Below, in pieces: positions 10,968 to 32,684 of a stretch of 64,000 bases of DNA; within the stretch, counting starts at the first letter, position 1, and every line of letters starts with the position of its first letter. Below the pieces are notes generated by a model. That model worked only from the letters and a program-made list of their open reading frames with translations. It ran no database searches and was not told the origin of the DNA. The stretch is from Neisseria sp. 83E34. GTDB taxonomy: Bacteria > Pseudomonadota > Gammaproteobacteria > Burkholderiales > Neisseriaceae. The translations under genes were made by a program, and so were the position numbers. The stretch covers positions 124,001 to 188,000 of the forward strand of contig NZ_LGYH01000006.1 of assembly GCF_001308015.1 (NCBI RefSeq). Reading direction: 5' to 3'.

Positions 10968-11821
10968 GAGACTTTTGCAAAATTTGCCCCAATCCCCTAA
11001 ATTCCCTACCAAGACATTTAGGGGATTTTTCATGAGCACCTTCTTTCAACAAACCGCACAAGCCATGATTGCCAAACACATCGATCGCTTCCCCTTATTG
11101 AAGCTCGAGCAAGTGATTGGTTGGCGACCGATCGAGCATTACTTGAATTATCAAAAAACCCGCCCTCTTCGAGACCGCCGCAGCCGTCCCGCCTATCCCC
11201 TGTTATCCGTGTTCAAAGCCGTTCTATCCGGCCAATGGCACAGCCTTTCCGATCCCAAACTCGAACACAGCCTCATTACCCGCATGGATTTTTACCTGTT
11301 TTGCCGTTTTGACGAACTGTCTCCGATCACAATTCCTTATACCGCTACCGCAACCGGCCGGCACAAGAAATACCCTGGCCGAACTACTGGATCTTATTAA
11401 CCGTCAACTGACTGAGAAGGGCTTAAAAGTAGAAAAAGCACACACTGACGCCAATGCCCATGAGTACAAACACCTGCTGCCTTTATTGGAAGGCTTAGCC
11501 AAAGACACCACTGTTTATGCCGATAAAGGCTACGACAGTATGGAAAACCGGCAACATCTGAAAGAACGTCGGCTGTAGGACGGCATGATGTGCAAATCCC
11601 ATCGCGACCGGCCGTTGACGGAAGTGCAGATCAAGCGATGTGTTTGAACCTGTTGAAAGTAGCCAACAGGCTAAGTGCGCCTGTTGTTGCCTGAAAGGCA
11701 GCCCAGATACCCGATTAATCGGGTATTTGAGGAGAATAAAGGGAATATTGGAATAGAAAACAGCCGAAATCCGCTGTTTGAAGTCCGACTGCTAAACAAA
11801 AAGTTATTTTGCAAAGGTCTC
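10968..11821 (+). mobile_element. Decayed IS5-family insertion sequence (IS1106-like)
   Basis: The element is bounded by inverted ends GAGACTTTTGCAAAAT (from 10968) and, at the right, TTTTGCAAAGGTCTC (ending 11821). Inside is a broken transposase gene. The flanks are AATGCCT on the left and TGCCTATCTGAA on the right. This suggests insertion into an uptake sequence, leaving a short TGCCT repeat on both sides. The right-hand DUS pair has since decayed. IS family is assigned from the transposase protein as I remember the neisserial IS1106 group. Confidence 0.8.
11032..11694 (+). pseudogene. IS5-family transposase, multiply disrupted
   Basis: The frame opens MSTFFQQTAQAMIAKHIDRF and matches neisserial IS5/IS1106 transposases through FCRFDEL at about 11320. 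The frame then shifts. The continuation TLAELLDLINRQLTEKGLKV is in another frame, followed by a deletion that removes the first catalytic Asp region. ANAHEYKHLLPLLEGL and VYADKGYDSMENRQHL (second catalytic Asp region) follow. There is an in-frame stop after KERRL, a further deletion of the catalytic Glu region, and the natural C-terminus MCLNLLKVANRLSAPVVA ending at 11694. It cannot encode an active transposase. Confidence 0.88.
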
Positions 11822-11892: not shown

Positions 11893-12915
11893 TCAAAAAT
11901 AATCTTCCCGCCGCCTGCTTCTGCCGAATACCGCTTCTCTAGCCTCTCTGATACACAGGCGGTTGTAAGTAGTGCGCTGCTGATGGTCATCATCAAATAT
12001 TTTCATGTTCATATCGATCGGCTGAGGCGTACATTCGGCAAAATTGTTTTTCAAGCTCTCCCAGCGCTCGCGTTGGATATGCACGATGGCAAACATATCG
12101 GCTGCGATACTCACGCCCACGCTCAATTGGCTTTTTGATGCCTGCAAGCAAAACCCGGTATCGGCAAAGAGGCAGCAATCAAATTTATCGTTGTAGCGGA
12201 ACACTTCGATTTTTACCGCATCCGGTTCGGCAAACAAACTGGTAAACAAGCGTTCAAACAAAGATGGCTGCATCACACCATCGCTAAGCATTCCGTAAAG
12301 ATTCGCCAGCCAGCGCGTGTAGCCATCCGGAGAAAAAGCGAAGGTGCTCAATATCCGCCTTAAACGCTGCTGCGGCCTTCGCTCAATCAAGGTAACAAAC
12401 TCGGTGCTGACTTCAGGCAGCTGTGCCAACACAGCCTGATGCAAACTGTGTACAAACAAAATATTGTGGTTATAAGGATTGCGGAAAATACCGAGCAGCT
12501 TCAGCCGCAAAATGCGCCATAAGGCTTTCGGCACTTTTTGATTACCGCTGCGGATAACACGTAAAGCGTTGCAGGCTTCTTCATAACCGCTTTCGTGGCG
12601 GCTGAACCAGCTTTCCAGATTGTATTGGCTGTCGCCGCCCGCGAAAGACAAAGTATAAAGATTGTTTACTTCCAGATTGTTTTCGATATTCACGCTTTCC
12701 GCTTTAGCTTTATAAGGGTTTTGAAACATGGCAAGCGGCAGCCTGTAAACATTTTGATTTTGCGGGCTTACATCGTGGTTAAACGCATGTTGCCGCTGCT
12801 CGGTTTGCGCAATGAAATGATGGCCTCTGGTAACATTGGCCGTGAGCAAGGCATAAGGCTTTTCTTCGCACTCCGGCGGCTCGCAATCGCTTAGAATAAA
12901 AGCTTGTTTCATCAT
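11893..12915 (-). CDS. Unrecognised 340-residue protein
   Basis: I do not recognise this protein with confidence. It has no signal peptide and no membrane segment, and reads as a soluble cytoplasmic protein. The early segment TRGHHFIAQTEQRQHAFN is faintly like the HHxxPQ opening of DUF4238 proteins, but the rest does not help. Other visible parts are a basic stretch RPQQRLRRIL (about 200) and a Cys-containing block KFDCCLFADTGFCLQ near 265. The C-terminus is basic (FGRSRRREDYF). Two consecutive ATGs start it (12915 or 12912), with no strong ribosome binding site. It lies between an IS remnant and gatB, with codon use like its neighbours. Confidence 0.6.
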   Translation of the reverse strand: MMKQAFILSDCEPPECEEKPYALLTANVTRGHHFIAQTEQRQHAFNHDVSPQNQNVYRLPLAMFQNPYKAKAESVNIENNLEVNNLYTLSFAGGDSQYNLESWFSRHESGYEEACNALRVIRSGNQKVPKALWRILRLKLLGIFRNPYNHNILFVHSLHQAVLAQLPEVSTEFVTLIERRPQQRLRRILSTFAFSPDGYTRWLANLYGMLSDGVMQPSLFERLFTSLFAEPDAVKIEVFRYNDKFDCCLFADTGFCLQASKSQLSVGVSIAADMFAIVHIQRERWESLKNNFAECTPQPIDMNMKIFDDDHQQRTTYNRLCIREAREAVFGRSRRREDYF

Positions 12916-12993: not shown

Positions 12994-13030
12994 AATGCCT
13001 GTCTGAAAACAATATTTTCAGACAGGCATT
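12994..13030 (-). terminator. Inverted DUS hairpin after gatB
   Basis: AATGCCTGTCTGAAAA and complement (12994-13009, 13015-13030), 21 bases past the gatB stop. Confidence 0.7.
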
Positions 13031-13050
13031 CTATCGGCAACTCGACACAA

Positions 13051-14478
13051 TCAAGCCAGTTTTGCTTTCAGCAATTCCTGCACCTGCTGCGGATTGGCTT
13101 TGCCTTTGCTGGCTTTCATTACTTGACCCACCAGCGCATTAAAGGCTTTTTCCTTGCCGGCTTTGAATTCTTCCACCGATTTGGCATTGTTGGCCAACAC
13201 TTCGTCGATGATTTTCTCAATCGCACAGGTGTCGGTCATTTGTTTCAAGCCGTCACGTTCGATGATGGCTTCGGCATCCAAATCGCTGCCCCACATTGCT
13301 TCAAATACCTGTTTGGCCAGTTTGTTGCTTAATGTACCGTCAGCGATTTTCGCCACCAATCCGGCCAAGCGGTCGGCCTGAATCGGGCTTTCAGACAGGC
13401 TTAAACCTTCTTTGTTCAGCGTAGCCGCCAATTCGCCGTTCATCCAGTTTGCCACCAGTTTGCCTTGTCCGCTGGCTTGTGCGGCTGTTTCAAAGAAAGC
13501 GGCTTGAGGGCGGCTGGCGGTTAACAAACGGGCATCGTAGTCGCTTACACCGAAATCGCGGATAAAGCGTTGTGCCATTTCAGACGGCAGCTCCGGCATT
13601 TCACTGCGGGCGCGCTCCATTTGCTCGTCGGAAATGATCACCGGCAGCAAGTCAGGGTCGGGAAAATAGCGGTAGTCGTGCGCATCTTCTTTCAGGCGCA
13701 TCACGCGGGTTTCGCCTTTATCGGGGTCGAACAGCATCGTCGCTTGTTGAACTTTGCCGCCGTCTTCCAAAATCTCAATTTGGCTTTCCACTTCATAATT
13801 AATCGCCTGCTCCAAGAAGCGGAAAGAGTTTAAGTTTTTGATTTCACGACGCGTACCGAATTCCTGCTCGCCTTTCGGACGCACCGATACGTTGGCATCG
13901 ATACGGAACGAACCTTCCGCCATATTGCCGTCGCAAATATCCAGCCAAGTGACCAAACCGTGCAAAGCTTTGGCATAAGCCACAGCCTCGGCGGCAGAAC
14001 GCATTTCCGGCTCGGACACCACTTCCAGCAGTGGCGTGCCGGCACGGTTGAGGTCGATGCCTGTTGCACCGCTCAAGCCTTCATGCACCGACTTGCCCGC
14101 ATCTTCCTCCATATGTGCGCGGGTTACATTGATGGTTTTGACTTCGTCGCCCACCACAATTTCCAGCTTGCCGTACTCCACAATCGGCAAGTCCAACTGG
14201 CTGATTTGATAGCCTTTGGGCAAATCGGGGTAGAAGTAATTTTTACGGTCGAACACGTTTTTGCGGTTGATCGTCGCATCCAAAGCCAAGCCGAGCTTGA
14301 TGGCTTTTTCCACCACCGCCCGGTTCATCACCGGCAACACGCCCGGCAAAGCACACTCCACCACACTGGCGTGCGCATTCGGCTCGGCACCAAAAGCGGT
14401 AGAAGCACCGCTGAAAATTTTGGATTTGGTATTTAATTGGACGTGGATTTCCAGTCCGATTACGGTTTCCCAGGTCAT
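13051..14478 (-). CDS. gatB: Asp-tRNA(Asn)/Glu-tRNA(Gln) amidotransferase subunit B
   Basis: tRNA-binding and kinase subunit of the GatCAB complex, which converts misacylated Glu-tRNA(Gln) and Asp-tRNA(Asn). The 475 residues begin [20 protein letters not shown], the GatB signature. [14 protein letters not shown] and the HMEEDAGKS segment of the catalytic cradle follow. Zinc-associated and helical/YqeY-like C-terminal regions end in [18 protein letters not shown]. Normally it follows gatA directly; here dpnC- and dpnD-like genes intervene, with 40 bases between dpnD and gatB. A GCCGTCTGAA uptake core at 13579-13588 is unlike the local dialect and suggests recombination with another Neisseria. 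Confidence 0.97.
13579..13588 (-). other. Foreign-dialect DUS core inside gatB
   Basis: The complement reads GCCGTCTGAA, the 10-base DUS of meningococcus-like Neisseria, whereas the host dialect is TGCCTGTCTGAA. Confidence 0.8.
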
Positions 14479-14518
14479 AAGGGGTCTTTCTATTTAAAAT
14501 ACTCGATATTATTTATCT

Positions 14519-14854
14519 TTAAATCGTTTCAATGTATTGATTTAAATAAGCAATGCAATGGTAAATATGATTTTTGGGGTATTGTGATTGTTCGTAATCA
14601 CGCTGTTCATCTACTTCCAAATAGCTCAAAATCTTTGCAATATGCGATACAACCTCAGGTTGATTAATAGTCTTGTCTTTACTAGATAAAAGAGAGAATT
14701 CTGCTTCCTTAGTAAAATCACTAGCATCTAACATAATTTCTTTAGTTTTATATAAAAATCTTGCCTTATCAATCGCTTCATCAGGATTTTCAGCTTCTAT
14801 ATGTACCACCCTGCTTAATTCTTCTTTAATTTCCACCTGAAAGCTTTTTATCAT
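14519..14854 (-). CDS. dpnD: DpnD/PcfM-like protein, partner of the DpnI-type nuclease
   Basis: A 111-residue protein whose first 55 residues (MIKSFQVEIKEELSRVVHIE, then EAIDKARFLYKTKEIMLDASDF) match the DpnD/PcfM domain: a beta strand, a helix, and a conserved acidic-Asp-Phe ending. The rest is polar and ends in YHCIAYLNQYIETI. In the pneumococcal DpnI cassette the gene after the nuclease is dpnD, of undefined role. The same order is seen here. Its ATG directly abuts the TAA of the nuclease gene, so translation is probably coupled. Visibly A+T-rich compared with gatA and gatB. Homology is by memory of the domain, so function stays open. Confidence 0.8.
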   Translation of the reverse strand: MIKSFQVEIKEELSRVVHIEAENPDEAIDKARFLYKTKEIMLDASDFTKEAEFSLLSSKDKTINQPEVVSHIAKILSYLEVDEQRDYEQSQYPKNHIYHCIAYLNQYIETI

Positions 14855-15628
14855 TTAACTTATTACCTTCCTATACCGTCCACGGGCCGAAAATTCAATT
14901 AACCCTTGATCACGCAAAATTTGCAGTTGCTGGCGGATTTTGTCTTTAATATGATTGTTTTCAGGAAATTGGATAGCCAATTGCTGTTCAAACGCATACA
15001 CCTGTTTCAATTCAAATTGTTCAGGTAGTTTTTCAATACATTTCATTATTGCCAAGAGCCAGCCTTTACTTTTAGATTGCTGCTGCCTTAAAAACAAATT
15101 AGCCTGCCATTGCTCGTGTACTTTTTCAGGCTCAATGATTTGCTGCTTTTGAACCAACAGTATCTTGCCGCTTTCAGGTAGCCTGCCGATGTCGATAGTG
15201 CAGCCTACCCATCCTGCTCGTTTGGCTGTTTCAGGTAAAGGTTTACGGCGGATAATCATATCGGTAGTAATAAAATGCTTGGGAACAAGCATTAATTGCT
15301 GCACGGAATAATCTGATTTTCTATACGACAGAAAAAAGAAATTCGGGTTATCGTCGGCCTGAATACGCTTAATCATGGTTTGATATGCGCCATCATTGAT
15401 TTTTTTACCTACTGATTTGCCGTTCTTGCTTTTCAATTCAAATTGTTCTTCGCATTGATGGCAAAGAAAATCCTGTACAGGTCTGTTATTTTCTACCTTT
15501 TTGATTGGCTTGCAACCACAACTCGGGCAATAAACATTTTCGGCCATCCAGTTTTCCGACAACACACGGGCAATTTGAGATGCACTTTTATAGCCTTCGA
15601 CTAACAGGGTATTGAATTGCAAATTCAT
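14855..15628 (-). CDS. dpnC: DpnI-type restriction endonuclease cutting methylated G-m6A-TC
   Basis: A 257-residue type IIM restriction enzyme, very close to DpnI of pneumococcus (254 residues); Neisseria also have the related dam-replacing gene drg. Cys34, Cys37, Cys56 and Cys59 form the zinc site. The PD-(D/E)XK catalytic residues Asp53, Glu64 and Lys66 fall at the same numbers as in DpnI. NNPNFFFLSY and GWVGCTIDIG follow, and the C-terminal winged-helix reader begins at about 190 with NNHIKDKIRQQLQILRDQG. It should cut DNA that carries Dam methylation and spare unmethylated DNA, so the host is expected to lack Dam. The cassette splits gatA from gatB and is A+T-rich. A foreign-dialect DUS sits immediately upstream. 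No methylase accompanies it, as expected for this type. Confidence 0.95.
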   Translation of the reverse strand: MNLQFNTLLVEGYKSASQIARVLSENWMAENVYCPSCGCKPIKKVENNRPVQDFLCHQCEEQFELKSKNGKSVGKKINDGAYQTMIKRIQADDNPNFFFLSYRKSDYSVQQLMLVPKHFITTDMIIRRKPLPETAKRAGWVGCTIDIGRLPESGKILLVQKQQIIEPEKVHEQWQANLFLRQQQSKSKGWLLAIMKCIEKLPEQFELKQVYAFEQQLAIQFPENNHIKDKIRQQLQILRDQGLIEFSARGRYRKVIS

Positions 15629-15629
15629 T

Positions 15630-15641
15630 TTCAGACGGCCT
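15630..15641 (-). other. Foreign-dialect DUS (AG-DUS) upstream of the DpnI gene
   Basis: The complement reads AGGCCGTCTGAA, a perfect AG-DUS, one base upstream of the DpnI-type start codon and just after gatA. It supports entry of the cassette by natural transformation from an AG/AT-DUS species. Confidence 0.85.
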
Positions 15642-15663
15642 TATTATTTTCATGTAGCCCTTT

Positions 15664-17118
15664 TCAAACTCCGGCAGGCGTTTTGTTGTGCCAATCACTC
15701 TCCAACTGCATCTGATGAGCCACGCCCAATAATTTCGCTTCGGCAAAATAATTGCCAATCAATTGCACGCCAATTGGCAGGCCCTGTGAAGAGAAGCCTG
15801 CGGGCAGGGTCATGGCTGGGAGGCCGGCGAGGTTGACGGCGATGGTGTAGATATCGCTCAGATACATTTGCACGGGGTCGTTAATGTCGCTGCCTAATTT
15901 GGGCGCGGCGGTTGGTGCGGTTGGTGCGAGGATGATGTCGCATTGCTGTAAGGCCGTCTGAAAATCGTTGGACACCAAGCGGCGCAGTTTTTGGGCTTTC
16001 AGGTAGTAAGCGTCGTAGTAGCCGTGGCTGAGCACATAGGTGCCGATCATGATGCGGCGTTTCACTTCGCTGCCGAAGCCTTCGGCGCGGGTGTTGCTGT
16101 ACAACTCTTCCAAATTGCCGAACTGCTCTGCACGGTGACCGTAGCGCACGCCGTCGTAGCGCGACAGGTTGGTACTGGCTTCGGCAGAGGCGAGCACGTA
16201 GTAAGCGGGGATTGAAAGCTCGGTTTGCGGCAGGCTTACTTCCACCATTTCCGCGCCTTGCGCTTTTAACAAGTCAATGGCCGTCTGAACGGTTTTTTGT
16301 ACGTCTGCACTCATGCCTTCGCCGAAATATTCTTTGGGCAGGCCGACTTTTAAGCCTTTGAGGGGCTGGTTCAGATCTCGAGTGTAGTCTTCTTTGGCGC
16401 GTTCCAAGCTGGTGGAATCGCGCTCGTCAAAGCTTGCCATGGCATTTAACAGGATGGCACAGTCTTCGGCAGTTTGAGCCATCGGGCCGGCTTGGTCGAA
16501 ACTAGAGGCGTAAGCCACCATGCCGAAGCGGGAAACCACGCCGTAAGTGGGTTTCAAGCCGGTAATGCCGCAGTGTGAGGCCGGTTGTCGGATAGATCCG
16601 CCGGTGTCCGAACCCAAAGCTGCCGGTGCCAAACGGGCTGCAACCACGGCTGCGGAACCGCCGGAAGAGCCGCCGGGCACGTTTTCCAAGTTCCACGGGT
16701 TTTTGGTGGCACCGTAGAACGAAGTTTCGTTGGTCGAACCCATGGCGAATTCGTCCATATTGGTGCGGCCGAGGGTTACCATGCCTTCGTTGAGCAGGTT
16801 TTGCACGACTGTGGCGGTATAGGGGGAAATGAAGTTGTCCAACATTTTGCTGGAGCACGCGCTTTTCCAACCTTGTTGGCAGAAGATGTCTTTATAGGCA
16901 ATCGGTACGCCGGTGAGGATGCCTGCGTTTCCGGCGGCGATGCGCACGTCTGCGGCTTTGGCTCCGGCTAGGGTAAGGTCTTTGTCTAAAGTGATGTAGC
17001 CGTTGATTGCGGGGTTTCGGGCATCAATGGCGTTCAGGTATTCTTGCGCCAGCTCGGTGGCGGAGATTTTTTTGCTTTGCAGCAGTTCGCTGGCTTGTTT
17101 TACGGTGTATTGGGTCAT
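15664..17118 (-). CDS. gatA: Asp-tRNA(Asn)/Glu-tRNA(Gln) amidotransferase subunit A
   Basis: Amidase subunit that releases ammonia from glutamine for GatB. At 484 residues it is normal length. The Ser-cisSer-Lys triad is present: Lys76 in [10 protein letters not shown], Ser151 in [10 protein letters not shown] and Ser175 in [12 protein letters not shown], with the same spacing as in known GatA proteins. It sits downstream of gatC on the same strand, separated by 103 bases that carry a DUS pair. Two GCCGTCTGAA cores lie inside the gene (15951-15962 as full AG-DUS, 16280-16289) and no full host-dialect DUS was seen, consistent with import of this allele. Confidence 0.97.
15951..16289 (+). other. 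Two foreign-dialect DUS inside gatA
   Basis: AGGCCGTCTGAA at 15951-15962 and GCCGTCTGAA at 16280-16289, both on the plus strand within the gatA coding region. Confidence 0.85.
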
Positions 17119-17157
17119 GGGTATCTGCTTGTCTTGTGTCAGATGTATTTAAAACCT

Positions 17158-17205
17158 TTTTCAGACAGGCATTTGTAAACTCTATGGAATATGCCTGTCT
17201 GAAAA
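17158..17205. repeat. Inverted DUS pair between gatC and gatA
   Basis: TTTTCAGACAGGCAT (17158-17172) and its complement (17191-17205) flank an 18-base loop. It lies inside the gatC-gatA interval, where full termination would separate the two genes. Confidence 0.75.
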
Positions 17206-17221
17206 GCATTTATCTCAAGTT

Positions 17222-17512
17222 TTATTCTTCAATTACTTGCGGCACGATATACAAGCGGTTGCGCACTTCCGGGGCAACGGCCTGATATTCGGCAGCATGA
17301 TCGGTTTCGGTAACCGCATCTTCGCGCAGGCGCAAAGCCACTTCGTGCGGATGAGCCATTGGTTCTACGCCTTCTGTGTCAACGGTTTGCATTTTTTCAA
17401 CCATGGCAAAGATATCGTTTAATTCTTGCAGATTTTGCGCTTTTTCTTCTTCTGTAAGGCTCAGGCGGGAAAGTTTGGCTATTTTTTCCACATCAGCTAA
17501 TGTCAAGGCCAT
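17222..17512 (-). CDS. gatC: Asp-tRNA(Asn)/Glu-tRNA(Gln) amidotransferase subunit C
   Basis: Small subunit (96 residues) that wraps around and stabilises GatA in the GatCAB complex. It begins MALTLADVEKIAKLSRLSLT, the standard GatC opening. The HPHEVALRLREDAVTE segment and the C-terminal RNRLYIVPQVIEE, which threads into the GatA interface, both match the family. First gene of the minus-strand gat group and divergent from mreB; the 239-base interval holds both promoters and a single DUS at about 17660. Confidence 0.96.
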   Translation of the reverse strand: MALTLADVEKIAKLSRLSLTEEEKAQNLQELNDIFAMVEKMQTVDTEGVEPMAHPHEVALRLREDAVTETDHAAEYQAVAPEVRNRLYIVPQVIEE

Positions 17513-17751
17513 TTAAAGTTAATCCTTAAAAATAATAATTAGCAAAATTACCTTCAGTGAGGTATTATTCAGCATACACGTTTTAACCACGGCGCTCTAA
17601 ACTAAATCAGGCACGCGAACTGCGGATTATAAACGAAAACCAGTCCTCCGGCATGGTGTTTTTCAGACAGGCATCACATAGTAAAACCTGTAAAAACGCC
17701 ATGCCTTATCATGTTTTTAATATATAACTCAAGTTAGACAAAAGGCTTTTC

Positions 17752-18780
17752 ATGTTTGGCTTTTTCAACCGTTTTTTGTCCCACGACCTGGCTATCGATC
17801 TGGGTACGGCCAATACGCTTATCTATGCCAAAGACAAAGGCGTGATACTCAACGAACCTTCCATAATCGCGGTTCAAGAAAATGAGCATCATCAGGAATC
17901 CACCATTGCCATCGGCACCGAAGCGAAGAAAATGTTGGGTCGCACTCCTGCGTCCATCCGCGTTGTTCGCCCGATGAAAGACGGCGTGATTGCCGATTTC
18001 GAACTTACCGGAAAAATGCTCAAACATTTCATCCGCAAAGCCACGGAAGGCCGCCCTTCCCGCGTTGTCATCTGCGTGCCTTACGGTGCTACCCAAGTAG
18101 AACGCAAAACCATCGCCGAATCTGCCAAAGCCGCAGGCGCGTCGGATGTGTTTTTGATTGAAGAGCCTATGGCTGCCGCTCTGGGCGCAGGCCTGCCTGT
18201 AAACGAAGCCGCCGGCTGTATGATTGTCGACATTGGCGGCGGCACAACCGAAATCGGCATTTTGGCTATGAACGAGGTAGTTTATGCCAACTCAATCCGC
18301 ACCGCAGGCAACGCTTTTGATGAAGCCATCATTCTATATGCACGACGCGAATTCGGCATCATCATCGGAGATGTTACTGCAGAAAACATCAAACTAAACA
18401 TCGGAACCGCCTATCCGGTTGAAAATGTGGAAAGTATGATTATTACCGGACGCAGCATTTCAAAAGGTACGCCCCGCACTTTTTCCATCAATTCGAATGA
18501 AGTGTTTGAAGCACTCAAAGATCCGCTAAACAGAATCATTCAAGCTATTATCACCTCTCTTGAACTGACCCCGCCCGAGCTTGCCTCAGACATCATCAGC
18601 CGCGGGCTGGTATTAGCCGGAGGCGGCGCGCTCTTGAGCAATATGGATCGTCTATTATCAGAAGCTACCGGTTTGCCGGTAATAATTGCAGAAAATCCTT
18701 TATGTTGCGTAGCACGTGGAACAGGCTATGCATTGGATTTAATCGGAACCCAACATCCGATTTTGTCACAAATCCCTTAA
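17752..18780 (+). CDS. mreB: Rod shape-determining actin homologue MreB
   Basis: Cytoskeletal ATPase that positions the lateral-wall synthesis machinery. The 342 residues show the actin-fold phosphate loops LAIDLGTANT (phosphate 1) and MIVDIGGGTTEIG (phosphate 2), and GLVLAGGGALL (adenosine loop). The membrane-binding N-terminus MFGFFNRFLS is amphipathic. It heads mreB-mreC-mreD-mrdA-rodA, the last four overlapping or nearly so, so this is one elongasome operon. Presence of this operon implies a rod, since coccoid Neisseria have lost it. Confidence 0.98.
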   Translation: MFGFFNRFLSHDLAIDLGTANTLIYAKDKGVILNEPSIIAVQENEHHQESTIAIGTEAKKMLGRTPASIRVVRPMKDGVIADFELTGKMLKHFIRKATEGRPSRVVICVPYGATQVERKTIAESAKAAGASDVFLIEEPMAAALGAGLPVNEAAGCMIVDIGGGTTEIGILAMNEVVYANSIRTAGNAFDEAIILYARREFGIIIGDVTAENIKLNIGTAYPVENVESMIITGRSISKGTPRTFSINSNEVFEALKDPLNRIIQAIITSLELTPPELASDIISRGLVLAGGGALLSNMDRLLSEATGLPVIIAENPLCCVARGTGYALDLIGTQHPILSQIP

Positions 18781-18801
18781 TAAAAAATTTTGTTATACAT
18801 C

Positions 18802-19656
18802 ATGGCAAAACCGTCTTTCAGCTTCGACCGCCCCAAGCGCGTGCCCGTCGGCAAGTTTTTCATACTCTGCCTAACCAGCATCGCGCTTTTGATGCTGGAT
18901 CAGAAATTTGAAGCGGTGCAGCATGTTCGCAGCATTGCAGCTTCTTTTACTTTCCCCCTGCAATGGATTGCTGCCAAGCCCGTTGAGCTATATGAACACA
19001 TCAGCCTGTTGGCCCGCTCACAAGCCGAGTTGAAGAGCCAAAACCAAGCTTTGCAAGCAGAAAATATCAAATTGCAGATAGCTTCACATAGAAACGAAGC
19101 ATTGGAAAAAGAATTAGGCGAATTGAAAAACGTTTTGAATTTAAAGCAGATTAACTTTACTGATTCAGTGGCTGCCGAAGTGGTATCAAACGGCAGCAAT
19201 CCGTTTTCCGACCTGTTGGTCATCGACAAAGGCAGCGAAAGCGGTATACGCGCGGGAGATGCCGTGATTGACCGCAAGGGCCTGGTAGGCCAAATCATTC
19301 AAGCCCGCCGTTATAGCGCCGATTTGCGCCTGATCTCTGCTAATGAATTGCTTGTGCCCGTAGCCGTGGCACGCACCGGTGTACGCAGCCTGACTTTCGG
19401 TGACGGCAACCGCATTTCCCTCCGCTATTTTCCCACTGATGCCGATCTAAAAGCAGGCGACATCCTGCTCACTTCCGGCATCGACAGTGTTTATCCGGGC
19501 GGCATTCCCGTAGCTCGGGTAAAAGAAGCTTCCAAAGCTTCAGGAACGCCTTATTACCAAACAAAACTTGAAGCATCTTCCGGTTTGCAATCCAGCAAAT
19601 ACCTTTTGGTTTTATCTCAAAAACCGGCAGCCTCTGACGCAACTGACCAACCATGA
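18802..19656 (+). CDS. mreC: Rod shape-determining protein MreC
   Basis: Periplasmic scaffold that links MreB/MreD to PBP2. The 284-residue product has a cytoplasmic lead, one membrane helix (FILCLTSIALLMLD, about 18-31), a coiled coil (about 70-110, QAELKSQNQALQAENIKLQI) and beta-barrel domains beginning near AAEVVSNGSNPFSDLLVIDKG. The ATG at 18802 is preferred over the upstream in-frame TTG at 18790. Neither has a good ribosome binding site, which fits translation coupled to mreB, 21 bases upstream. Its stop overlaps the mreD start by four bases. Confidence 0.96.
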   Translation: MAKPSFSFDRPKRVPVGKFFILCLTSIALLMLDQKFEAVQHVRSIAASFTFPLQWIAAKPVELYEHISLLARSQAELKSQNQALQAENIKLQIASHRNEALEKELGELKNVLNLKQINFTDSVAAEVVSNGSNPFSDLLVIDKGSESGIRAGDAVIDRKGLVGQIIQARRYSADLRLISANELLVPVAVARTGVRSLTFGDGNRISLRYFPTDADLKAGDILLTSGIDSVYPGGIPVARVKEASKASGTPYYQTKLEASSGLQSSKYLLVLSQKPAASDATDQP

Positions 19657-20150
19657 GCAATCTCAGTATTTCCCAAACCCGCCTGCCGATCGTACCTGTT
19701 GTTTTAACATTAGCAGGGGCATTATTGTTGGATTTCATACCGCTTCCTGCCGATACTTTTTTCTGGCTGCCCAAGTTCAGCGCTTTGGTGTTAATCTTTT
19801 TGGCGCTTTACCGCCCCCAAACATTCGGCCTATTTACCGCTTTTTTAATCGGACTCGCCGTCGATGCCGGCACAGCCACACCGCTGGGGCAATATGCTTT
19901 AGCCTACGTTACAGGCATTTTTTTGCTCCAACTGCCGGGCTTTATGGGCAAACTTAATACACCTGTGCGGCAACTTATCGGCGTGCTGGTTATCTTGTTG
20001 CTCATTCACGCATTGTTATTGTTTATCCATGCAGTCAATCAACGGCAGTTAGTCCACCTTGAAAGCATGCTTGCTGCATTAAGCGGCATGTTGCTTTGGC
20101 CCTTAGTTGATAAAATTTTGAAATATTTCTTTAACCGCTTCACGAAATGA
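19653..20150 (+). CDS. mreD: Rod shape-determining membrane protein MreD
   Basis: Integral membrane partner of MreC in the elongasome, 165 residues with five to six hydrophobic helices: VVLTLAGALLLDFIPL, LVLIFLALYRP, FGLFTAFLIGLAVDAGT, LAYVTGIFLLQLPGF and LIGVLVILLLIHALLLFI. The GLAVDAGTATPLGQYAL segment matches the conserved MreD motif around the Asp. ATGA overlaps join it to mreC upstream and mrdA downstream, indicating tight translational coupling. Confidence 0.95.
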   Translation: MSNLSISQTRLPIVPVVLTLAGALLLDFIPLPADTFFWLPKFSALVLIFLALYRPQTFGLFTAFLIGLAVDAGTATPLGQYALAYVTGIFLLQLPGFMGKLNTPVRQLIGVLVILLLIHALLLFIHAVNQRQLVHLESMLAALSGMLLWPLVDKILKYFFNRFTK

Positions 20151-22183
20151 AAAAAACAGCTACCCAACAGGCAGCTGAAACACGCATGCCCAATAAAGAT
20201 TTCAACCGCCGCTTGGGGGTTGCTTTCTGCGTGATTGTTCTTTCATTTTGCATATTGGCAGCCAATTTCGTTTATCTTCAAATATTTAAGCATGAAGAAT
20301 ATTTGGTTCAAGCAGCTTCCAACCGCATTTCCCTGATTCCTACCCCGCCTGTACGTGGCGAAATCGTGGATGCCAACGGTGTGGTTCTGGCACGCAACTA
20401 TCCCGTGTTTTCTTTGGAATTAAATCCGAAAACCATCGGTAACAAACATATCGATACCACTATCGAAGCTCTCAAATCTTATGTTGACATCACCGAAAAC
20501 GATTTGGCGCGTTTCAAAAAATTTCGGGCTGAATACCGCTCCTATGAAAAAGTACCGCTCAAGCTCAAACTATCGGTAGACGAAGCTTCCCGCCTTGCGC
20601 CACACCTTTCACGTTTTCAGGGTGTTGAAATCAACACCCGTACATTTCGCGAGTACCCCTATGGTAAACTAACCGCCCATTTCTTAGGCTACATTGGCCG
20701 CATCAGCGATCGCGACCAAGAAAAATTGGATGAAAACAACCGGCGGGCGCTCTATCGCGGCAGCACGCATATCGGCAAAACAGGTTTGGAAAATTATTAT
20801 GAAAACCAGCTTCATGGCGCACCCGGCTATCAACGGGTAGAAAAAGATGCCCACGGCAATATTGTGCGTGTTTTGAATAATGTGGAACCTAAAAACGGCC
20901 TAACCCTCAAACTGGCTATGGATATCCGCCTCCAGCAAGAAGTTGACCAAATTTTTTCAGACAGGCGTGGTGCCGCCATTGCAATTGACCCGCAAACCGG
21001 CGGCGTACTGGCTTTTGTGTCTAAGCCTTCGTTTGACCCCAACCTGTTTATCGATGGTATTGATTCCGCCACTTGGAAGGCGCTGAATGAAGACTGGCAG
21101 CGTCCGCTGCTTAACCGCGTTACCCAAGGCCTGTATCCGCCCGGTTCTACTTTCAAACCTTTTATGGGCATGGCTTTACTCGAAAGCGGGAAAATTACGC
21201 AAACCACAGTTGTGCCGGCTCCCGGAGCATGGAGCATTCCGGGCAGCCGCCATGTATTTCGCGATTCCGTGCGCAGAGGCCACGGTTCCGCCAATTTAAG
21301 CAAAGCCATCCAGGTTTCATCCGACACCTTTTTTTATCGACTGGGCTATGAAACAGGTATCGAAAGACTGGGTAAATATTTAGCCGAATTCGGTTTCGGC
21401 CAGCAAACCGGTATCGATATTCCAAACGAATATCGAGGCATTCTGCCCTCCCCCGAATGGAAAGAAAAACGCTTTGCCAAGCTGCCTGCCGCCGAACGGA
21501 AGTGGCGACCCGGCGAAATGGTATCGGTCAGCATCGGCCAAGGATATAACGCCTATACCCCATTGCAGCTGGCCCATGCCACAGCTTCATTAGCCAATAA
21601 CGGCAAAGTGTTCCGCCCGCATCTGGTCAAAGAAATTCTGGATTATGCCAACAAAGAAAAATTTGTGATTGAGCCGCAGGCGAGCAGACAGATTCCGTTT
21701 AAGCAGGAAAACTTTGAATATGTGAAACAGGCCATGCAAAAGGTAACGCGCCCTGGCGGCACGGCTTGGCGCATCGGCGGCGCGCCTTATCCGCTCGCCG
21801 GTAAAACAGGTACTGCACAAGTTGTGCAAATCAAACAAGGAGCTCGCTACAATGCCGCCGCTTTGCGCGAACAACACCGCGACCACGCATGGTTTATTGC
21901 ATTTGCGCCGATAGAAAATCCTAAAATTGCCGTTGCTTTGATTTTGGAGAATGGCGGCTGGGGTGCGCACGCTGCGCCTTTAGTACGCCGTTTGATGGAT
22001 TATTATCTTTTGAATCTGAATGGCTTAGGCAATCAAACGACTGTCGAAGCCGCGGTAACCAATCAGCTTTCAGCATCTGCTCCGGCTATCAACGGCCCAG
22101 CACAAACCACACCGTTGGCACCGCTGCCTGGTTTTCAGACAGGCATTTTTCCCGAAGATAATCCGGGATCAACATTACCATGA
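20147..22183 (+). CDS. mrdA: Peptidoglycan D,D-transpeptidase PBP2 (elongasome)
   Basis: Class B penicillin-binding protein that crosslinks lateral-wall peptidoglycan with RodA as glycosyltransferase. The 678 residues contain an N-terminal membrane anchor (about 25-47), a pedestal domain with RGEIVDANGVVLARN, and the transpeptidase domain. The nucleophile Ser334 lies in GSTFKPF, followed by the VSSDTFF (SxD) motif and LAGKTGTAQV (KTG box). The C-terminus extends past the domain and ends PGFQTGIFPEDNPGSTLP, where a DUS is read in frame (FQTGI). An internal DUS also encodes FSDRRG near residue 270. ATGA overlaps link it to mreD and rodA. Confidence 0.97.
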   Translation: MKKTATQQAAETRMPNKDFNRRLGVAFCVIVLSFCILAANFVYLQIFKHEEYLVQAASNRISLIPTPPVRGEIVDANGVVLARNYPVFSLELNPKTIGNKHIDTTIEALKSYVDITENDLARFKKFRAEYRSYEKVPLKLKLSVDEASRLAPHLSRFQGVEINTRTFREYPYGKLTAHFLGYIGRISDRDQEKLDENNRRALYRGSTHIGKTGLENYYENQLHGAPGYQRVEKDAHGNIVRVLNNVEPKNGLTLKLAMDIRLQQEVDQIFSDRRGAAIAIDPQTGGVLAFVSKPSFDPNLFIDGIDSATWKALNEDWQRPLLNRVTQGLYPPGSTFKPFMGMALLESGKITQTTVVPAPGAWSIPGSRHVFRDSVRRGHGSANLSKAIQVSSDTFFYRLGYETGIERLGKYLAEFGFGQQTGIDIPNEYRGILPSPEWKEKRFAKLPAAERKWRPGEMVSVSIGQGYNAYTPLQLAHATASLANNGKVFRPHLVKEILDYANKEKFVIEPQASRQIPFKQENFEYVKQAMQKVTRPGGTAWRIGGAPYPLAGKTGTAQVVQIKQGARYNAAALREQHRDHAWFIAFAPIENPKIAVALILENGGWGAHAAPLVRRLMDYYLLNLNGLGNQTTVEAAVTNQLSASAPAINGPAQTTPLAPLPGFQTGIFPEDNPGSTLP

Positions 22184-23352
22184 ACAAAGCAAAATCAACC
22201 CGAGAATTGCAGAACAAGCTGCAAAAAGCATTACACTTCATTTGGCAGCCGATAGATGCTTGGCTGCTGTATGCCATGCTCGCCATTTACATAATGAGTA
22301 TGTTCCTGCTTTATTCGGCCGACGGACAGACCTTCGGCCAACTTGAAAACAAAACAGTACATACCGTTATCGGCTTTATCCTGCTTTGGATCATAGCTTG
22401 GCAGCAGCCTAAAACCTTGTCAAAATTTGCTTTACCGATTTATATCGCCGGCGTGCTGATGCTGGTTGGCGTGGAGCTTTTCGGCATTACCGTAAACGGC
22501 TCCACCCGTTGGCTTGATTTGGGCTTTACCCGCATACAGCCTTCCGAAATTATGAAAATCGGCCTCCCTATGACTATTGCATGGTTTTTACAACGTTATG
22601 AAGATAGGCTGTGCTGGTTTCATTATTTAGCCGCCCTTCTGATCACCGCCGTACCCGTTACACTGATTCTCAAACAACCGGACTTAGGTACAGCCGTTTT
22701 AATTATGGCCTCGGGTATGTTTGTGATTTTCTTTGCCGGCCTGCCTTGGAAAATCATCTTGCTGGCGCTTGCCGGTTTTGCCGCATCACTCCCATTAATT
22801 TGGAATTACGGCCTACACGATTACCAGCGCACCCGGATTTTAACACTGCTCGACCCAACCAAAGACCCTCTCGGCGCCGGCTACCATATATTGCAATCCA
22901 TGATTGCCATCGGCTCCGGCGGCGTATGGGGAAAAGGATGGCTAAACGGTTCCCAAACCCATCTCGACTACATACCCGAAGCCACTACCGATTTTATTTT
23001 AGCGGCTTATGGTGAAGAATTCGGTTTAGTCGGTAATTTGCTGCTGCTTTTGGTTTATCTGCTGATACTCGGCCGCGGGCTTTATATTGCCGCACAAGCA
23101 GATTCTCTTTACAGCCGCACATTGGCAGCGGCGCTGACGATGACGTTTTTTTGTTACGCCTTTGTCAATATGGGCATGGTTAGCGGCATTCTGCCCGTAG
23201 TCGGCGTGCCGCTGCCTTTAGTAAGTTACGGCGGCACCGCCACTCTTTCTGTCATGATTATTTTAGCGATTCTGATGGGTATTTCTAAAGAACGCAAAGA
23301 TCAGGCTCAAAGCCAAACCGAAAACAATAAGGAACAATTTAGGAATCATTAA
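22180..23352 (+). CDS. rodA: Peptidoglycan glycosyltransferase RodA (SEDS family)
   Basis: Polymerises lipid II into glycan strands for lateral wall growth together with PBP2. The 390 residues form about ten membrane helices. Family motifs include LDLGFTRIQPSEIMKIGLP, LKQPDLGTAVLI, the periplasmic loop with DPTKDPLGAGYHILQS, and the C-terminal PLVSYGGTATLSVM. The Asp in the WLNGSQTHLDYIPEATTDFI loop region matches the SEDS conserved pattern. Last gene of the elongasome operon; the MarC-family gene starts three bases after its stop. Confidence 0.97.
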   Translation: MNKAKSTRELQNKLQKALHFIWQPIDAWLLYAMLAIYIMSMFLLYSADGQTFGQLENKTVHTVIGFILLWIIAWQQPKTLSKFALPIYIAGVLMLVGVELFGITVNGSTRWLDLGFTRIQPSEIMKIGLPMTIAWFLQRYEDRLCWFHYLAALLITAVPVTLILKQPDLGTAVLIMASGMFVIFFAGLPWKIILLALAGFAASLPLIWNYGLHDYQRTRILTLLDPTKDPLGAGYHILQSMIAIGSGGVWGKGWLNGSQTHLDYIPEATTDFILAAYGEEFGLVGNLLLLLVYLLILGRGLYIAAQADSLYSRTLAAALTMTFFCYAFVNMGMVSGILPVVGVPLPLVSYGGTATLSVMIILAILMGISKERKDQAQSQTENNKEQFRNH

Positions 23353-23354
23353 AA

Positions 23355-24014
23355 ATGGGCATGGAAATCGGCAAACTCATACTCGCCTTTATGGTTTTGA
23401 TTAACCCATTCAGCGCACTGGCAATTTTTCTTGATCTGACCCGCAATAACAGTACGCGAGAGCGGAAAAAAGTGGCGCAGATTGCATCACTGAGCGTATT
23501 TATCGTTATTGCGGTTTTCGCTTTTTCAGGCAACTGGATTCTACGCCTTTTCGGCATCAGCACAGGTGCTTTCCAAGTAGGTGGCGGGCTTTTAGTCTTT
23601 TTAATCGCCATTTCCATGATGAGCGCCGGCAGCAACCCGGCCAAACCGGAAATCGGTGTAGAAGACAGTAATGAAATTACCGTCAAACCCAAGCATCCCA
23701 CCCAAAGTGCCGCCTCGGTAGCCGTAGTGCCTCTGGCAATCCCTATGATGATTGGTCCCGGCGGCATTTCTACCGTGGTTATTTACGCTTCGGCAGCAAA
23801 AAACCTGCACGATACTTTGTTTATTGTTGCGGCCGGCGCAATTATTAGTATTATCTGTTTCATTACTCTTCTAGCCGCCAGCAAAATCAGCAACCTGTTA
23901 GGAGAAACCGGCTTAACCATTCTCAACCGTATCATGGGCATGCTGCTGGCAGCGGTGTCTGTGGAAATTGTGGTAGCGGGCTTGAAAGCTTTGTTTCCCC
24001 AGCTTGCCGGATAA
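23355..24014 (+). CDS. MarC-family inner-membrane protein
   Basis: A 219-residue integral membrane protein of the MarC/UPF0056 family, whose function is unsettled; MarC was once linked to multiple antibiotic resistance, and that link is no longer accepted. Six hydrophobic helices are visible. The first begins LILAFMVLINPFSALAIFL and carries the conserved NPFS. PLAIPMMIGPGGISTV is the second family motif, and LTILNRIMGMLLAAVSVEIV the last helix. It starts three bases after rodA and is probably read through from the elongasome operon. An inverted DUS closes it. Confidence 0.9.
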   Translation: MGMEIGKLILAFMVLINPFSALAIFLDLTRNNSTRERKKVAQIASLSVFIVIAVFAFSGNWILRLFGISTGAFQVGGGLLVFLIAISMMSAGSNPAKPEIGVEDSNEITVKPKHPTQSAASVAVVPLAIPMMIGPGGISTVVIYASAAKNLHDTLFIVAAGAIISIICFITLLAASKISNLLGETGLTILNRIMGMLLAAVSVEIVVAGLKALFPQLAG

Positions 24015-24044
24015 ATGTATGGAAATTCCTGAAACCGGCACAAT

Positions 24045-24077
24045 AATGCCTGTCTGAAAAATTTTCAGACAGGCATT
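24045..24077. terminator. Inverted DUS hairpin between convergent MarC-family and trkH genes
   Basis: AATGCCTGTCTGAAAA and complement (24045-24060, 24062-24077) with a one-base loop. It lies between two converging genes, so it could terminate both. Confidence 0.75.
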
Positions 24078-24104
24078 TATCTAAGCAAACCCTACAGAGC
24101 AGAT

Positions 24105-25568
24105 TTATTTCTTCCAATAAGCCGGTGTAAACAGAATAAACACGGTAAAAATTTCCAAGCGTCCGAGCAGCATCACGATGCAACACAGCCATTTCTGCAC
24201 CACGGTTAAATCCGCATAATTGTGCGCAGGGCCGACACTACCCAAACCAGGGCCGGCGTTGGTAATGCAGGCGATGGTTGCGGTAAACGCGGTAATGAAA
24301 TCCAATCCTGCCACCATTTGCGCAAATGTGAAAAAAATCACAGTCATAAAATAAACGAAAATAAACGCCATCACGGCCAGCGCCGTGCGTTCGGAAATCA
24401 GGCGTTTGTTCACTTTTACCGTGCGCACGGCATTCGGGTGCAACAGCAACAGCATTTCACGCAAGCTGAATTTTGCCAGAGCAACCACACGCGCCATCTT
24501 AACGCCGCCGCCCATAGAGCCGGTGTTGGCCAAAATATTGGAAAGAAAAAACATCCAAAGCGAAACAATCAGCGGCCATTTGGCAAAATCATAATTGGCA
24601 TAACCATTGGCCAGGCCGATGGAAACAAAGTTAAAACTCACAAAGCGAAATGCTTCTTCAAAACTCGCATAATAATTTTTGTACCACAAATACAAGCTCG
24701 ATGCGATGATGCTTACAGCCATCAACACCAGCATGACGCGGCTTTCTTGGTTATTCCAATAGCTTTTGAGCGAACGCTCGCGTACCACGGCAAAATGGCA
24801 GGCAAAATTAATGCCGCCCAAAATGGTTACTACGATTAACACGGTTTCGATTGCCACCGAATTAAAATAAGCAATGCTGCTGTCGTGTGTGGAAAAACCG
24901 CCCAAAGATGTGGCAGATAAAGCGTGGCACAGCGCGTCAAACCAGCTCATACCCGCCCAGCGCAATGCAAAAAATGCGGAAACGGTAATCACGGAATACG
25001 AAATCCACAATTTTTTCGCCACTTGCGAAATGCGCGGCGCCATTTTACTGTCTTTGTCTATGCCCGGAATCTCGGCCTTAAAAAGCTGGGTTCCCCCCAA
25101 ACCCAACATCGGCAATACGGCCACAGCCAACACGATAATCCCCATCCCGCCCAACCAGTTGAGCATGTGGCGCCAGAAATTCAAAGTCGGTGCCAGCGTA
25201 TCCAGGCTGGAAATAACGGTTGCGCCGGTAGTAGTCAAGCCCGACATGGCTTCGAAAAAAGCTTCGTTATAGCTCATGCCGGGCAGGTAAAGATAAAAAG
25301 GTATGGCTGAAATGGCGGCAAAACCAATCCAAAGCATCACCACCAATGTAAAGCCGTCGCGCGGGCGCATTTCCCGTTGGAAATTCAAAGTTGCCATCCA
25401 GGCAAGCGCCGAACCGATAAGCGTAACGAATGCGGTTTTGGCAAAAGCCGAAAATGTGCCGTCCACATAAAAATAGGAAAACAGCGTGGGTATCATCAAA
25501 ATCAGCGAGTAAAACACGCCGAGTTTCGACAACACATGAATAATGGGTAGAATTTTACGGTTTTGCAT
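24105..25568 (-). CDS. trkH: Potassium uptake channel subunit TrkH
   Basis: Pore-forming subunit of the Trk potassium uptake system, 487 residues, about ten helices. The four pore-loop repeats typical of the family are recognisable: AMSGLTTTGATVISSLD, ATSLGGFSTHDSSIAYF, a third around NTGSMGGGVKMARVVAL, and ITNAGPGLGSVGPAHNYAD. The glycine of each supplies the K+ filter. The NTGSMGGGVK segment corresponds to the gating loop. It is downstream of trkA on the same strand, so channel and regulator are adjacent; the 88-base gap holds three DUS. Confidence 0.95.
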   Translation of the reverse strand: MQNRKILPIIHVLSKLGVFYSLILMIPTLFSYFYVDGTFSAFAKTAFVTLIGSALAWMATLNFQREMRPRDGFTLVVMLWIGFAAISAIPFYLYLPGMSYNEAFFEAMSGLTTTGATVISSLDTLAPTLNFWRHMLNWLGGMGIIVLAVAVLPMLGLGGTQLFKAEIPGIDKDSKMAPRISQVAKKLWISYSVITVSAFFALRWAGMSWFDALCHALSATSLGGFSTHDSSIAYFNSVAIETVLIVVTILGGINFACHFAVVRERSLKSYWNNQESRVMLVLMAVSIIASSLYLWYKNYYASFEEAFRFVSFNFVSIGLANGYANYDFAKWPLIVSLWMFFLSNILANTGSMGGGVKMARVVALAKFSLREMLLLLHPNAVRTVKVNKRLISERTALAVMAFIFVYFMTVIFFTFAQMVAGLDFITAFTATIACITNAGPGLGSVGPAHNYADLTVVQKWLCCIVMLLGRLEIFTVFILFTPAYWKK

Positions 25569-25581
25569 GGTGGTTGGTGTA

Positions 25582-25645
25582 TTCAGACAGGCATGGTTCA
25601 GATGCCTGTCTGAAAGAATAATTAGAATGCGATGCCTGTCTGAAA
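25582..25645. repeat. Three DUS in the trkA-trkH gap
   Basis: An inverted pair (25582-25594 and 25602-25614) is followed by a third forward copy (25632-25645), all TGCCTGTCTGAA type. Confidence 0.75.
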
Positions 25646-25656
25646 ATGCGGATACA

Positions 25657-27051: not shown

Positions 27052-27289
27052 GTTTAATTATTTTGTTTACTCGAATAGTGTTATTGTAAACCAAAACGGA
27101 AAAGCAATAGCAAAGAAACGAATGCCCGATATGAAATATTAATCCGTTTCAGACAGGCATCCGCTTATCAAATACCTGAAATATGATGTAATATAATACT
27201 CTGCCAAACATGCTTTGCCCGCATCATGCAATGCCTGTCTGAAACATTAAATCGCAATAACAAATAACCACCGCAAAGGAACACAATCA

Positions 27290-28813: not shown

Positions 28814-28827
28814 AGCGGCATTTGCTT

Positions 28828-28865
28828 AAATTAGGCTGTCTGAATCATTTCAGACAGCCTAATTT
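28828..28865 (+). terminator. Hairpin made of a variant DUS (AGGCTGTCTGAA) after fumarase
   Basis: AAATTAGGCTGTCTGAA and complement enclose TCAT, followed by a T-run. The core AGGCTGTCTGAA differs from both the host and the meningococcal dialects by a base or two. Confidence 0.75.
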
Positions 28866-28886
28866 TATCAATGCAAAGGAGAAAAA

Positions 28887-29282
28887 ATGCCCATCACTAA
28901 AGGATTTAAAAAACTGGTGGAAGAAGCCATGAGCCAAATCACCACCCACAGTGTTGACGAAGCGCGCCGCAGCGCCGAAGCAGGCAAGGCCACCTTAATC
29001 GACATCCGCGACATCCGCGAGCTGGAACAAGGCGGCCGCGTACCCGGCGCTTTCCATGCTCCGCGCGGCATGCTCGAATTTTGGGTTGACCCCGATTCAC
29101 CTTATCACAAACCGGTTTTTGCCAATGAGGATACCGAGTTTATCCTGTTTTGCGGCGCAGGTTGGCGCAGCGCACTGGCTACCAAAACCCTCCAAGACAT
29201 GGGCATGACCAACGTCGCCCATATCGAAGGCGGCTTCGGCGCCTGGAAAGAAAGCGGCGCACCGGTAGAAAAAAACAATTAA
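28887..29282 (+). CDS. Rhodanese-like domain protein
   Basis: A 131-residue single-domain rhodanese, a family that transfers sulfane sulfur or senses thiols. The start MPITKGFKKLVEEAMSQITT leads into DIRDIRELEQGGRVPGAFHAPRG, the CH2A-type segment. The active-site loop LFCGAGWRSAL has Cys89 as the persulfide-forming residue, and HIEGGFGAWKESGAPV closes the fold. No signal peptide, so cytoplasmic. A good AAAGGAG ribosome binding site precedes the ATG. Partner and substrate cannot be read; the neighbours fumarase and aminopeptidase do not suggest one. Confidence 0.92.
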   Translation: MPITKGFKKLVEEAMSQITTHSVDEARRSAEAGKATLIDIRDIRELEQGGRVPGAFHAPRGMLEFWVDPDSPYHKPVFANEDTEFILFCGAGWRSALATKTLQDMGMTNVAHIEGGFGAWKESGAPVEKNN

Positions 29283-29303
29283 GATTTCCGGCTCACTTAA
29301 ATA

Positions 29304-29338
29304 TAATGCCTGTCTGAAAACCTTTCAGACAGGCATTA
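29304..29338 (+). terminator. Inverted DUS hairpin after the rhodanese gene
   Basis: TAATGCCTGTCTGAAA and complement (29304-29319, 29323-29338). Confidence 0.7.
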
Positions 29339-29366
29339 CAGACTTGCTCTTACCAAAGGAAACTCT

Positions 29367-31157: not shown

Positions 31158-31160
31158 CCC

Positions 31161-31196
31161 CAATGCCTGTCTGAAACGATATTCAGACAGGCATTG
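31161..31196 (+). terminator. Inverted DUS hairpin after the aminopeptidase gene
   Basis: CAATGCCTGTCTGAA and complement (31161-31175, 31182-31196), four bases past the stop. Confidence 0.7.
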
Positions 31197-31417
31197 ATAA
31201 TTTTAAAACCTAACCACAATAACAAGGATAACACCGCAAACCATACGGGCAATACAACGCAAACCACACTTGCCGATCATCCTAATTCCATCCTAATTTT
31301 CCGTCGCTATAATCATCGCGAGCTATGTTTGCTTTATATCAATTCAATCAAATGGGATTTAAATCCGAATGTTGGAAAGCCTGAATACCTTCAACCGGCA
31401 AGTTTTCTTGTTATTCA

Positions 31418-32681: not shown

Positions 32682-32684
32682 GCC

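Follow-up and report, generated by a model that had tools for sequence, protein, structure and literature searches.

How does a gene for a DpnI-type restriction enzyme come to lie between gatA and gatB in Neisseria sp. 83E34? We analyzed a stretch of 64,000 nucleotides of this genome (contig NZ_LGYH01000006.1, forward-strand positions 124,001 to 188,000; hereafter the window), in which the minus strand reads gatC, gatA, dpnC, dpnD, gatB, and compared it with further genomes, one per species (G000 denotes the host genome, and other G numbers the comparison genomes). The usual order is gatC-gatA-gatB. Gene order and Pfam matches bear out the original prediction, made from the sequence alone, that gatA and gatB are split by the DpnI-type gene dpnC and by dpnD, with the TAA of dpnC directly abutting the ATG of dpnD. 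We consider it probable (at about 0.8) that the gatA-gatB gap is an exchange site for incompatible GATC cassettes, which natural transformation would swap, gatA and gatB serving as the homology arms. Behind this reading stand the anatomy of the locus, the sites shared by dpnC and dam, the mutual exclusion of the two, the origin of the arms across a border between dialects of the DNA uptake sequence (DUS), and the mosaic of arms and cargo.

The main point, which a prediction from the sequence alone could not see, is that sister species carry dam operons at the same site. Genes gatA and gatB were found on one stretch in 43 of 46 genomes of the genus (all except G004, G011, and G042), and the gap between them holds dpnC in seven, a dam operon in six (G040, G041, G002, G016, G017, and G008, with G004 added by gatA alone), and other open reading frames (ORFs) in 28. 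It is near-empty in two (G003 and G031, at most 202 bases), so the claim that the two genes are usually adjacent is wrong for this genus. The presence of several cargo types between the same genes across the 43 gaps agrees with the definition of a minimal mobile element. The dam operon (dam-dpnA-endonuclease) combines PF02086, PF01555, and an endonuclease that is MutH-like or of the DpnII family; judged by these families, which were run on representative copies, it is of the DpnII type.

Six sites carry dpnC in one species and a dam operon in another. Besides gatA-gatB, they are leuS-adhE (dam/dpnC in G037 versus G035 with both flanks, and G023, G019, G020, G015, and G005 by leuS), obgE-cysS (dam in G036 versus dpnC in G022), ychF-tyrS (dam in G024 versus dpnC in G030 and G033), uvrD-queA (dam in G010 versus dpnC in G001), and mutS (dam in G038 versus dpnC in G034). 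At mutS the match covers one flank, and each of the other five sites has one or more pairs with both flanks matched; NCBIfam bore out the flank names in the dam-bearing copies, with UvrD just under the cut-off. Seventeen of 19 dpnC loci (setting aside a fragment of 52 residues in G031 and an additional, C-terminal match in G019) are at sites where another species has a dam operon, and 13 of 14 dam operons are at sites where another species has dpnC.

The two systems also exclude each other. A survey of the genus found dpnC in 20 of 46 genomes, 18 of them with an intact gene (G005, where it is broken, and the G031 fragment were not counted). PF02086 is common overall, with a match in 32 of 46 genomes; 14 genomes score at least 213 bits, and their dam is 67-100% identical to that of G040 and is adjoined by dpnA (partial in G016). 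These 14 include G031 and G008, the latter with a broken dam frame, and exclude G042, whose dam is broken. None of the 14 genomes with operon dam has an intact dpnC (0/14, one-sided Fisher P = 1.7e-4). Nine of the 18 dpnC genomes carry between them 16 weaker PF02086 matches, whose identity to G040 dam does not exceed 33%, three of them giving no match; these methylases therefore likely have another target. No Dam-family (PF02086) match was found in the host genome, as the original prediction would have it, so by sequence the host appears free of Dam; two PF01555 proteins remain, with partial matches only to DpnA of G040 (48 residues at 50% and 187 at 24%).

We compared the host with its relatives in 500-base steps. 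From 17000 to 22500 of the window, the host is 90-96% identical to G040, with two steps down to 85%, and 77-91% identical to G006; beyond 17500, its identity to four AG-DUS species (G041, G027, G045, and G002) is 65-78% where aligned, many steps being unaligned. Over 13000-17000 outside the cassette, in contrast, identity to the same four species is 86-95%. The step at 17000 is mixed (77-84%), and the switch falls near the start of gatA, in roughly its first 50 codons. Left of gatB only G006 aligns beyond short pieces.

The tree of rpoBC groups G000, G040, G006, and G029 at 100 and the four AG-DUS species at 100, and the tree of gatA and gatB conflicts with it. The latter rejects a group of G000, G040, and G006 (log-likelihood 385 lower; approximately unbiased test, P = 4.8e-64) and a group of the AG-DUS four (P = 2.6e-39), and rejects a group with G029 less strongly (P = 0.013). 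For G044, an AG-DUS-type species by its core count, the sister group is the AG-DUS four in the rpoBC tree and the mixed clade in the gatAB tree, a shift that suggests transfer from the AG-DUS side; G028, which like the host uses wadDUS, joins G012 in gatAB (95.7% identity, versus 85.7% in rpoBC). Of the 30 genomes in the rpoBC alignment, 23 entered the trees, which were built by a quick method; G004 (aberrant branch), G001, G007, G011, G020, G031, and G035 were left out. Vertical inheritance, with gatAB following the species tree and rpoBC misleading, would be conceivable in that rpoBC can recombine too; it is very improbable, as the DNA beside gatA up to 23000 sides with rpoBC (85-96% to G040, 77-91% to G006) and the change comes in the first codons of gatA. 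The comparison supports import of gatA, cassette, and gatB across the DUS-dialect border, which the original prediction had proposed, and the donor was likely a close AG-DUS relative instead of the meningococcus-like one that it had named: AG-DUS is the dialect of the species closest to the host in the arms, and identity of the host enzyme to the gonococcal and leuS-type Drg enzymes is only 57-61%.

Arms and cargo have separate histories as well. G040 and G002 are 95.2% identical in cargo and 89.3% in gatA, and G041 and G002 are 95.9% identical in cargo over 1596 bases and 89.8% in gatA; conversely, gatA is 96.9% identical between G006 and G045, and the arms 95.7% between G012 and G028, with cargo that has no match in either pair. 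The host and its rpoBC sister G040 have similar arms and opposite cargo. A single import of arms and cassette together, marked by foreign DUS and coming from a meningococcus-like donor, would fit the comparison with G027, from which the host's gatA (91.5%), cassette start with dpnC (93.4%), and gatB (93.2%) are about equally diverged, consistent with their joint transfer from a G027-like AG-DUS lineage, and the DUS content is closer to that of an AG donor than to that of the host. It is unlikely nevertheless, given the opposite cargo of G040 and the presence of the cores in relatives of either dialect and with either type of cargo, and its meningococcal donor is already contradicted by the divergence of the enzyme. 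Identity and tree conflict both speak for exchange by way of flank homology, for which transformation would be the vehicle.

The DUS themselves carry less weight. The host dialect is TGCCTGTCTGAA, as had been predicted, with 2119 copies in 2.42 Mb; it corresponds to wadDUS, known from N. wadsworthii (PMC3630211), and exceeds 1000 copies in five of the 46 genomes (G000, G006, G028, G029, and G040), the next genome having 78. The four donor-like species use AG-DUS, with 14-28 copies of AGGCCGTCTGAA versus 1-2 of ATGCCGTCTGAA per ~29 kb. The predicted AGGCCGTCTGAA one base before dpnC and the further GCCGTCTGAA cores, two in gatA and one in gatB, are all present. Four GCCGTCTGAA cores in 4068 bases are a modest excess over the 0.63 expected for the host (Poisson P = 0.004), with ~5.6 expected for an AG-DUS donor, and host 12-mers are absent from the gatA-gatB stretch (0 versus 3.6 expected), which has one host-type 11-mer, in gatB. 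The content thus fits an AG-DUS donor better than the host, as supporting evidence only, because the cores are inherited. We did not accept the three cores within gatA and gatB as proof of import: 5, 31, and 13 of the 34 genomes aligned have them at identical positions. The junction DUS lies 1-2 bases before dpnC in five of the seven gatA-gatB copies (G000, G006, G027, G012, and G021, not G044 and G029). In G040 and G041 it has the same spacing to gatA, with unrelated cargo of the dam type next to it; it marks a seam. Nor is GCCGTCTGAA rare in the host genome (373 copies versus 9 for a reversed control); the window has 7, versus 0.07 expected by shuffling.

Elsewhere in the host genome, contigs C9, C10, and C11 have stretches dense in GCCGTCTGAA among the matches listed, which may be imported stretches or stray contigs. 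A PF01555 methylase gene (G000:C1:416338-418847, L160) is surrounded by four GCCGTCTGAA cores in a span of 2.3 kb that is free of host-type cores, and is adjoined by ORFs that look phage-like by eye.

In place of mutual replacement, the shared sites may be hot spots for any cassette, as in a generic minimal mobile element, with dpnC and dam meeting there as common cargo. We regard this as possible, if the weaker account. It draws on the 28 gaps of 43 with other cargo, such as DUF535, on the dam operon of G031 at a site without a dpnC counterpart, and on the minimal mobile elements named in Neisseria, mostly with restriction-modification cargo (PMC4269198, citing Saunders and Snyder 2002 and Snyder 2007). 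Against it stand the remnants that lie directly beside dpnC: a piece of the C-terminal part of dam at 5/5 leuS loci, the C-terminus of dpnA at obgE-cysS (1/1), and, in G081 (L163), from another genus of the family, a C-terminally shortened dam that ends five bases before dpnC, an arrangement like that of drg inserted in dam. Hot spots alone would also allow both systems intact at different sites of one genome, which is the case in no genome.

Replacement in place, and exchange at gatA-gatB in particular, has to be set against several results that weigh the other way. None of the seven dpnC-bearing gatA-gatB loci has a dam or dpnA remnant beside dpnC, and, the gatA-gatB gap being a general cargo site, part of the site sharing could be due to hot spots alone. 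The dpnC sites of G018 and G028 (the latter near a contig end) and the dam site of G031 lack a counterpart; mutS, G004, and most leuS cases are supported by one flank; and the exclusion counts take one genome per species. In the dpnC tree the gatA-gatB copies are mixed with a ychF-tyrS copy and a mutS copy, and a single gatA-gatB clade is not rejected (P = 0.33), so movement between sites is neither shown nor excluded. Several rows in both the rpoBC and the gatAB trees are flagged for uneven base make-up. In a control stretch (20001-40000 of the window), most of the longer matches to AG-DUS species are at 67-78%, and stretches at ~27270-29275 and ~36800-39040 reach 81-88% with surroundings at ~70%, all among the matches listed; these two may be conserved genes or additional imports. 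Identity by itself is therefore not decisive, and the argument rests on the tree test and the neighboring genes.

The product of dpnC is full-length, with Pfam matches to DpnI (6e-80) and DpnI_C (1e-32), so that catalytic and winged-helix domains are both present, and PADLOC labels it mREase_II, a methyl-directed enzyme. It aligns with DpnI of PDB entry 4esj over residues 1-255 (E = 1e-90). The predicted retention of Asp53, Glu64, Lys66, and four cysteines (query 34, 37, 56, and 59) holds in this alignment; also conserved are the methyl-cleft residues L131, R137, and W140 (DpnI L129, R135, and W138) and K230 and R232 (DpnI K229 and R231). We take Lys66 to be an active-site residue and the cysteines to bind zinc, the latter as in the original prediction. 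The other active-site residues and the methyl-cleft residues compared are those named in the DpnI structure paper (PMC4117772). With the metal ligands and three methyl-cleft residues kept, Gm6ATC specificity is a fair expectation; cutting of Gm6ATC with GATC spared has been demonstrated for gonococcal Drg (PMC4269198).

The DpnD-PcfM match (PF14207, 1e-12) identifies dpnD, which is visible only in the host among the seven dpnC-bearing gatA-gatB gaps. At most dpnC loci dpnD is absent or truncated: dpnD-like starts of 17, 24, and 22 residues follow dpnC in G033, G030, and G028, and longer ones follow it in G034 (58 residues) and in Flavobacterium (104). In G027 and G006 (L051 and L052) a zeta-toxin-like kinase gene (PF06414, run for G006) takes the place that dpnD has in the host, and relatives lie within the gatA-gatB gaps of G001 and G008. 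Among 37 other genomes of the family, dpnC is full length in one (G081), and six more, all of one genus, match its C-terminal part only. Carriage of dpnC by plasmids or phages was not supported, as two of six records in a plasmid collection cover the whole protein, both of them 2.17-Mb gonococcal records, and three phage records cover the winged helix alone. The two gonococcal records (NZ_CP119142.1 and NZ_CP119140.1) are of a size that suggests chromosomes.

We propose the following mechanism. The host endonuclease would cut double-stranded DNA methylated on both strands at GATC, and the host's own DNA would stay unmethylated for want of Dam. In a sister species the DpnII-type operon (dam, dpnA, endonuclease) in the same gap would methylate GATC. 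A chromosome so methylated would be cut by DpnI, so exchange should succeed only in place: if a cell cannot hold both systems, either could enter only by replacing the resident one, and this incompatibility, if lethal, would explain why dpnC and dam share sites. The remnants at leuS, obgE-cysS, and G081 fit such replacement; none was seen at gatA-gatB. In the pneumococcus, transforming DNA is integrated single-stranded, and a DpnI cell spares its own chromosome, which is unmethylated (PMC3573125), and hemimethylated GATC is a poor substrate of DpnI (PMC12707154), so the enzyme should mainly hit double-stranded methylated DNA of phages and plasmids. The proposed defense against Dam-methylated DNA is thus plausible in kind, with transforming DNA an improbable target, and a DpnI cell should remain transformable while resisting methylated phage and plasmids. 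We lean, by little, toward a wider claim, that the antagonism between GATC methylation and Gm6ATC restriction fixes the geography of Neisseria genomes: entry would be possible only in place, the same few sites armed by housekeeping genes would alternate between DpnI and DpnII across the genus, and a switch would carry the arms across the DUS-dialect barrier.

Parts of this are already known. In the pneumococcus, which is naturally competent, one chromosomal locus (Dpn) carries either of two complementary GATC systems (PMC3573125), and its DpnI form (dpnC-dpnD), set against DpnII (dpnM-dpnA-dpnB), has dpnC followed by dpnD as here, with dam-dpnA-endonuclease as the alternative in Neisseria. Neisseria differs in having gatA-gatB and five other sites, across species, in an endonuclease that is MutH-like or DpnII-like, and in that most dpnC loci lack dpnD or have a truncated one. 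In 84 meningococci drg and dam are mutually exclusive (PMC516771), and drg lies within dam or replaces it, beside leuS (PMC4269198). Drg is of the same DpnI family as host DpnC; the host cassette differs in its site, its protein identity to Drg, its AG-DUS relatives as source, its dpnD, and the lack of a dam remnant at gatA-gatB. Minimal mobile elements share the variable cassette, often of restriction genes, between conserved genes (PMC4269198), whereas here an antagonistic pair of cargos alternates at several separate sites. The variable defense locus of Streptococcus suis, also a competent species, shares one locus with strain-varying defense elements (PMC5398294) but shows no apparent DpnI/DpnII pair, the sole mention of either name found in the text being in a reference title. 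The Neisseria data are best read as an exchange of DpnI and DpnII types by way of conserved flanks, genus-wide and similar to that of the pneumococcus; the known leuS/dam/drg locus would be one instance. We found no published report of the gatA-gatB site or of alternation at several sites; the site lists of Snyder 2007, Saunders and Snyder 2002, and Cantalupo 2001 were outside the search and may include some. An alternative that is classic at one pneumococcal and one meningococcal (drg/dam) locus occurs at six sites in one genus, and this recurrence, with the two systems mutually exclusive and with remnants at some sites, makes testable the rule that incompatible restriction systems exchange only in place. 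The gatA-gatB stretch also offers a concrete case of DNA that appears to have passed from one Neisseria species to another across the barrier of uptake signals, and this at a locus deciding which foreign DNA is cut.

Table 1 Features of the gatC-gatB region in window coordinates
Feature	Position	Strand	Remark
gatC	17222-17512	-	beyond the putatively imported stretch
Two host-dialect DUS cores in inverted orientation, gatC-gatA interval	17160..17203		terminator-like by eye; beyond the putatively imported stretch
gatA, putative left homology arm	15664-17118	-	PF01425; probable edge of import within about the first 50 codons
GCCGTCTGAA core in gatA (base 830)	16280..16289	+	same position in 5/34 genomes (G000, G040, G041, G027, G044)
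GCCGTCTGAA core in gatA (base 1157)	15953..15962	+	same position in 31/34 genomes
Seam, gatA stop to cassette	15628..15664	-	37 bases, 95-97% identical in dam-carrying G040 and G041
AGGCCGTCTGAA (AG-DUS) in seam	15630..15641	-	one base ahead of dpnC ATG
GCCGTCTGAA core in seam (junction)	15630	-	one of the four cores in gatA-gatB
dpnC, predicted DpnI-type Gm6ATC endonuclease gene	14855..15628	-	PF06044, PF17726, 4esj, PADLOC mREase_II
dpnD	14519..14854	-	PF14207, E = 1.2e-12; directly after dpnC stop
gatB, putative right homology arm	13051..14478	-	PF02934, PF02637; 92.6-93.2% DNA identity to AG-DUS species G041 and G027
GCCGTCTGAA core in gatB	13579..13588	-	same position in 13/34 genomes
GCCTGTCTGAA (host-type core) in gatB	13390..13400	-	same position in 10/34 genomes, including AG-DUS users

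The gene upstream of gatA took the name gatC from the order that is usual in the family. No transposase was seen in the host gatA-gatB gap; the gaps of G021 and G010 have ORFs that, by eye, are presumably transposase-like. G031 (L153) carries its dam-dpnA-endonuclease operon beside what we take, by eye, to be a pheS-like gene, where no dpnC counterpart was seen. Downstream of gatB, a 340-residue ORF (11893-12915) has no Pfam match at E = 0.001, and DNA resembling this stretch was found only in G006 among six relatives. A gene that we take by eye to be leuS-like (42041-44554) has three GCCGTCTGAA cores and may be another arm of foreign origin; leuS is a known drg/dam site, and beyond the gene lies an insertion sequence (IS)-like fragment. 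Two ORFs, at 10975-11400 and 44726-45154, share a nearly identical IS-like protein stretch.

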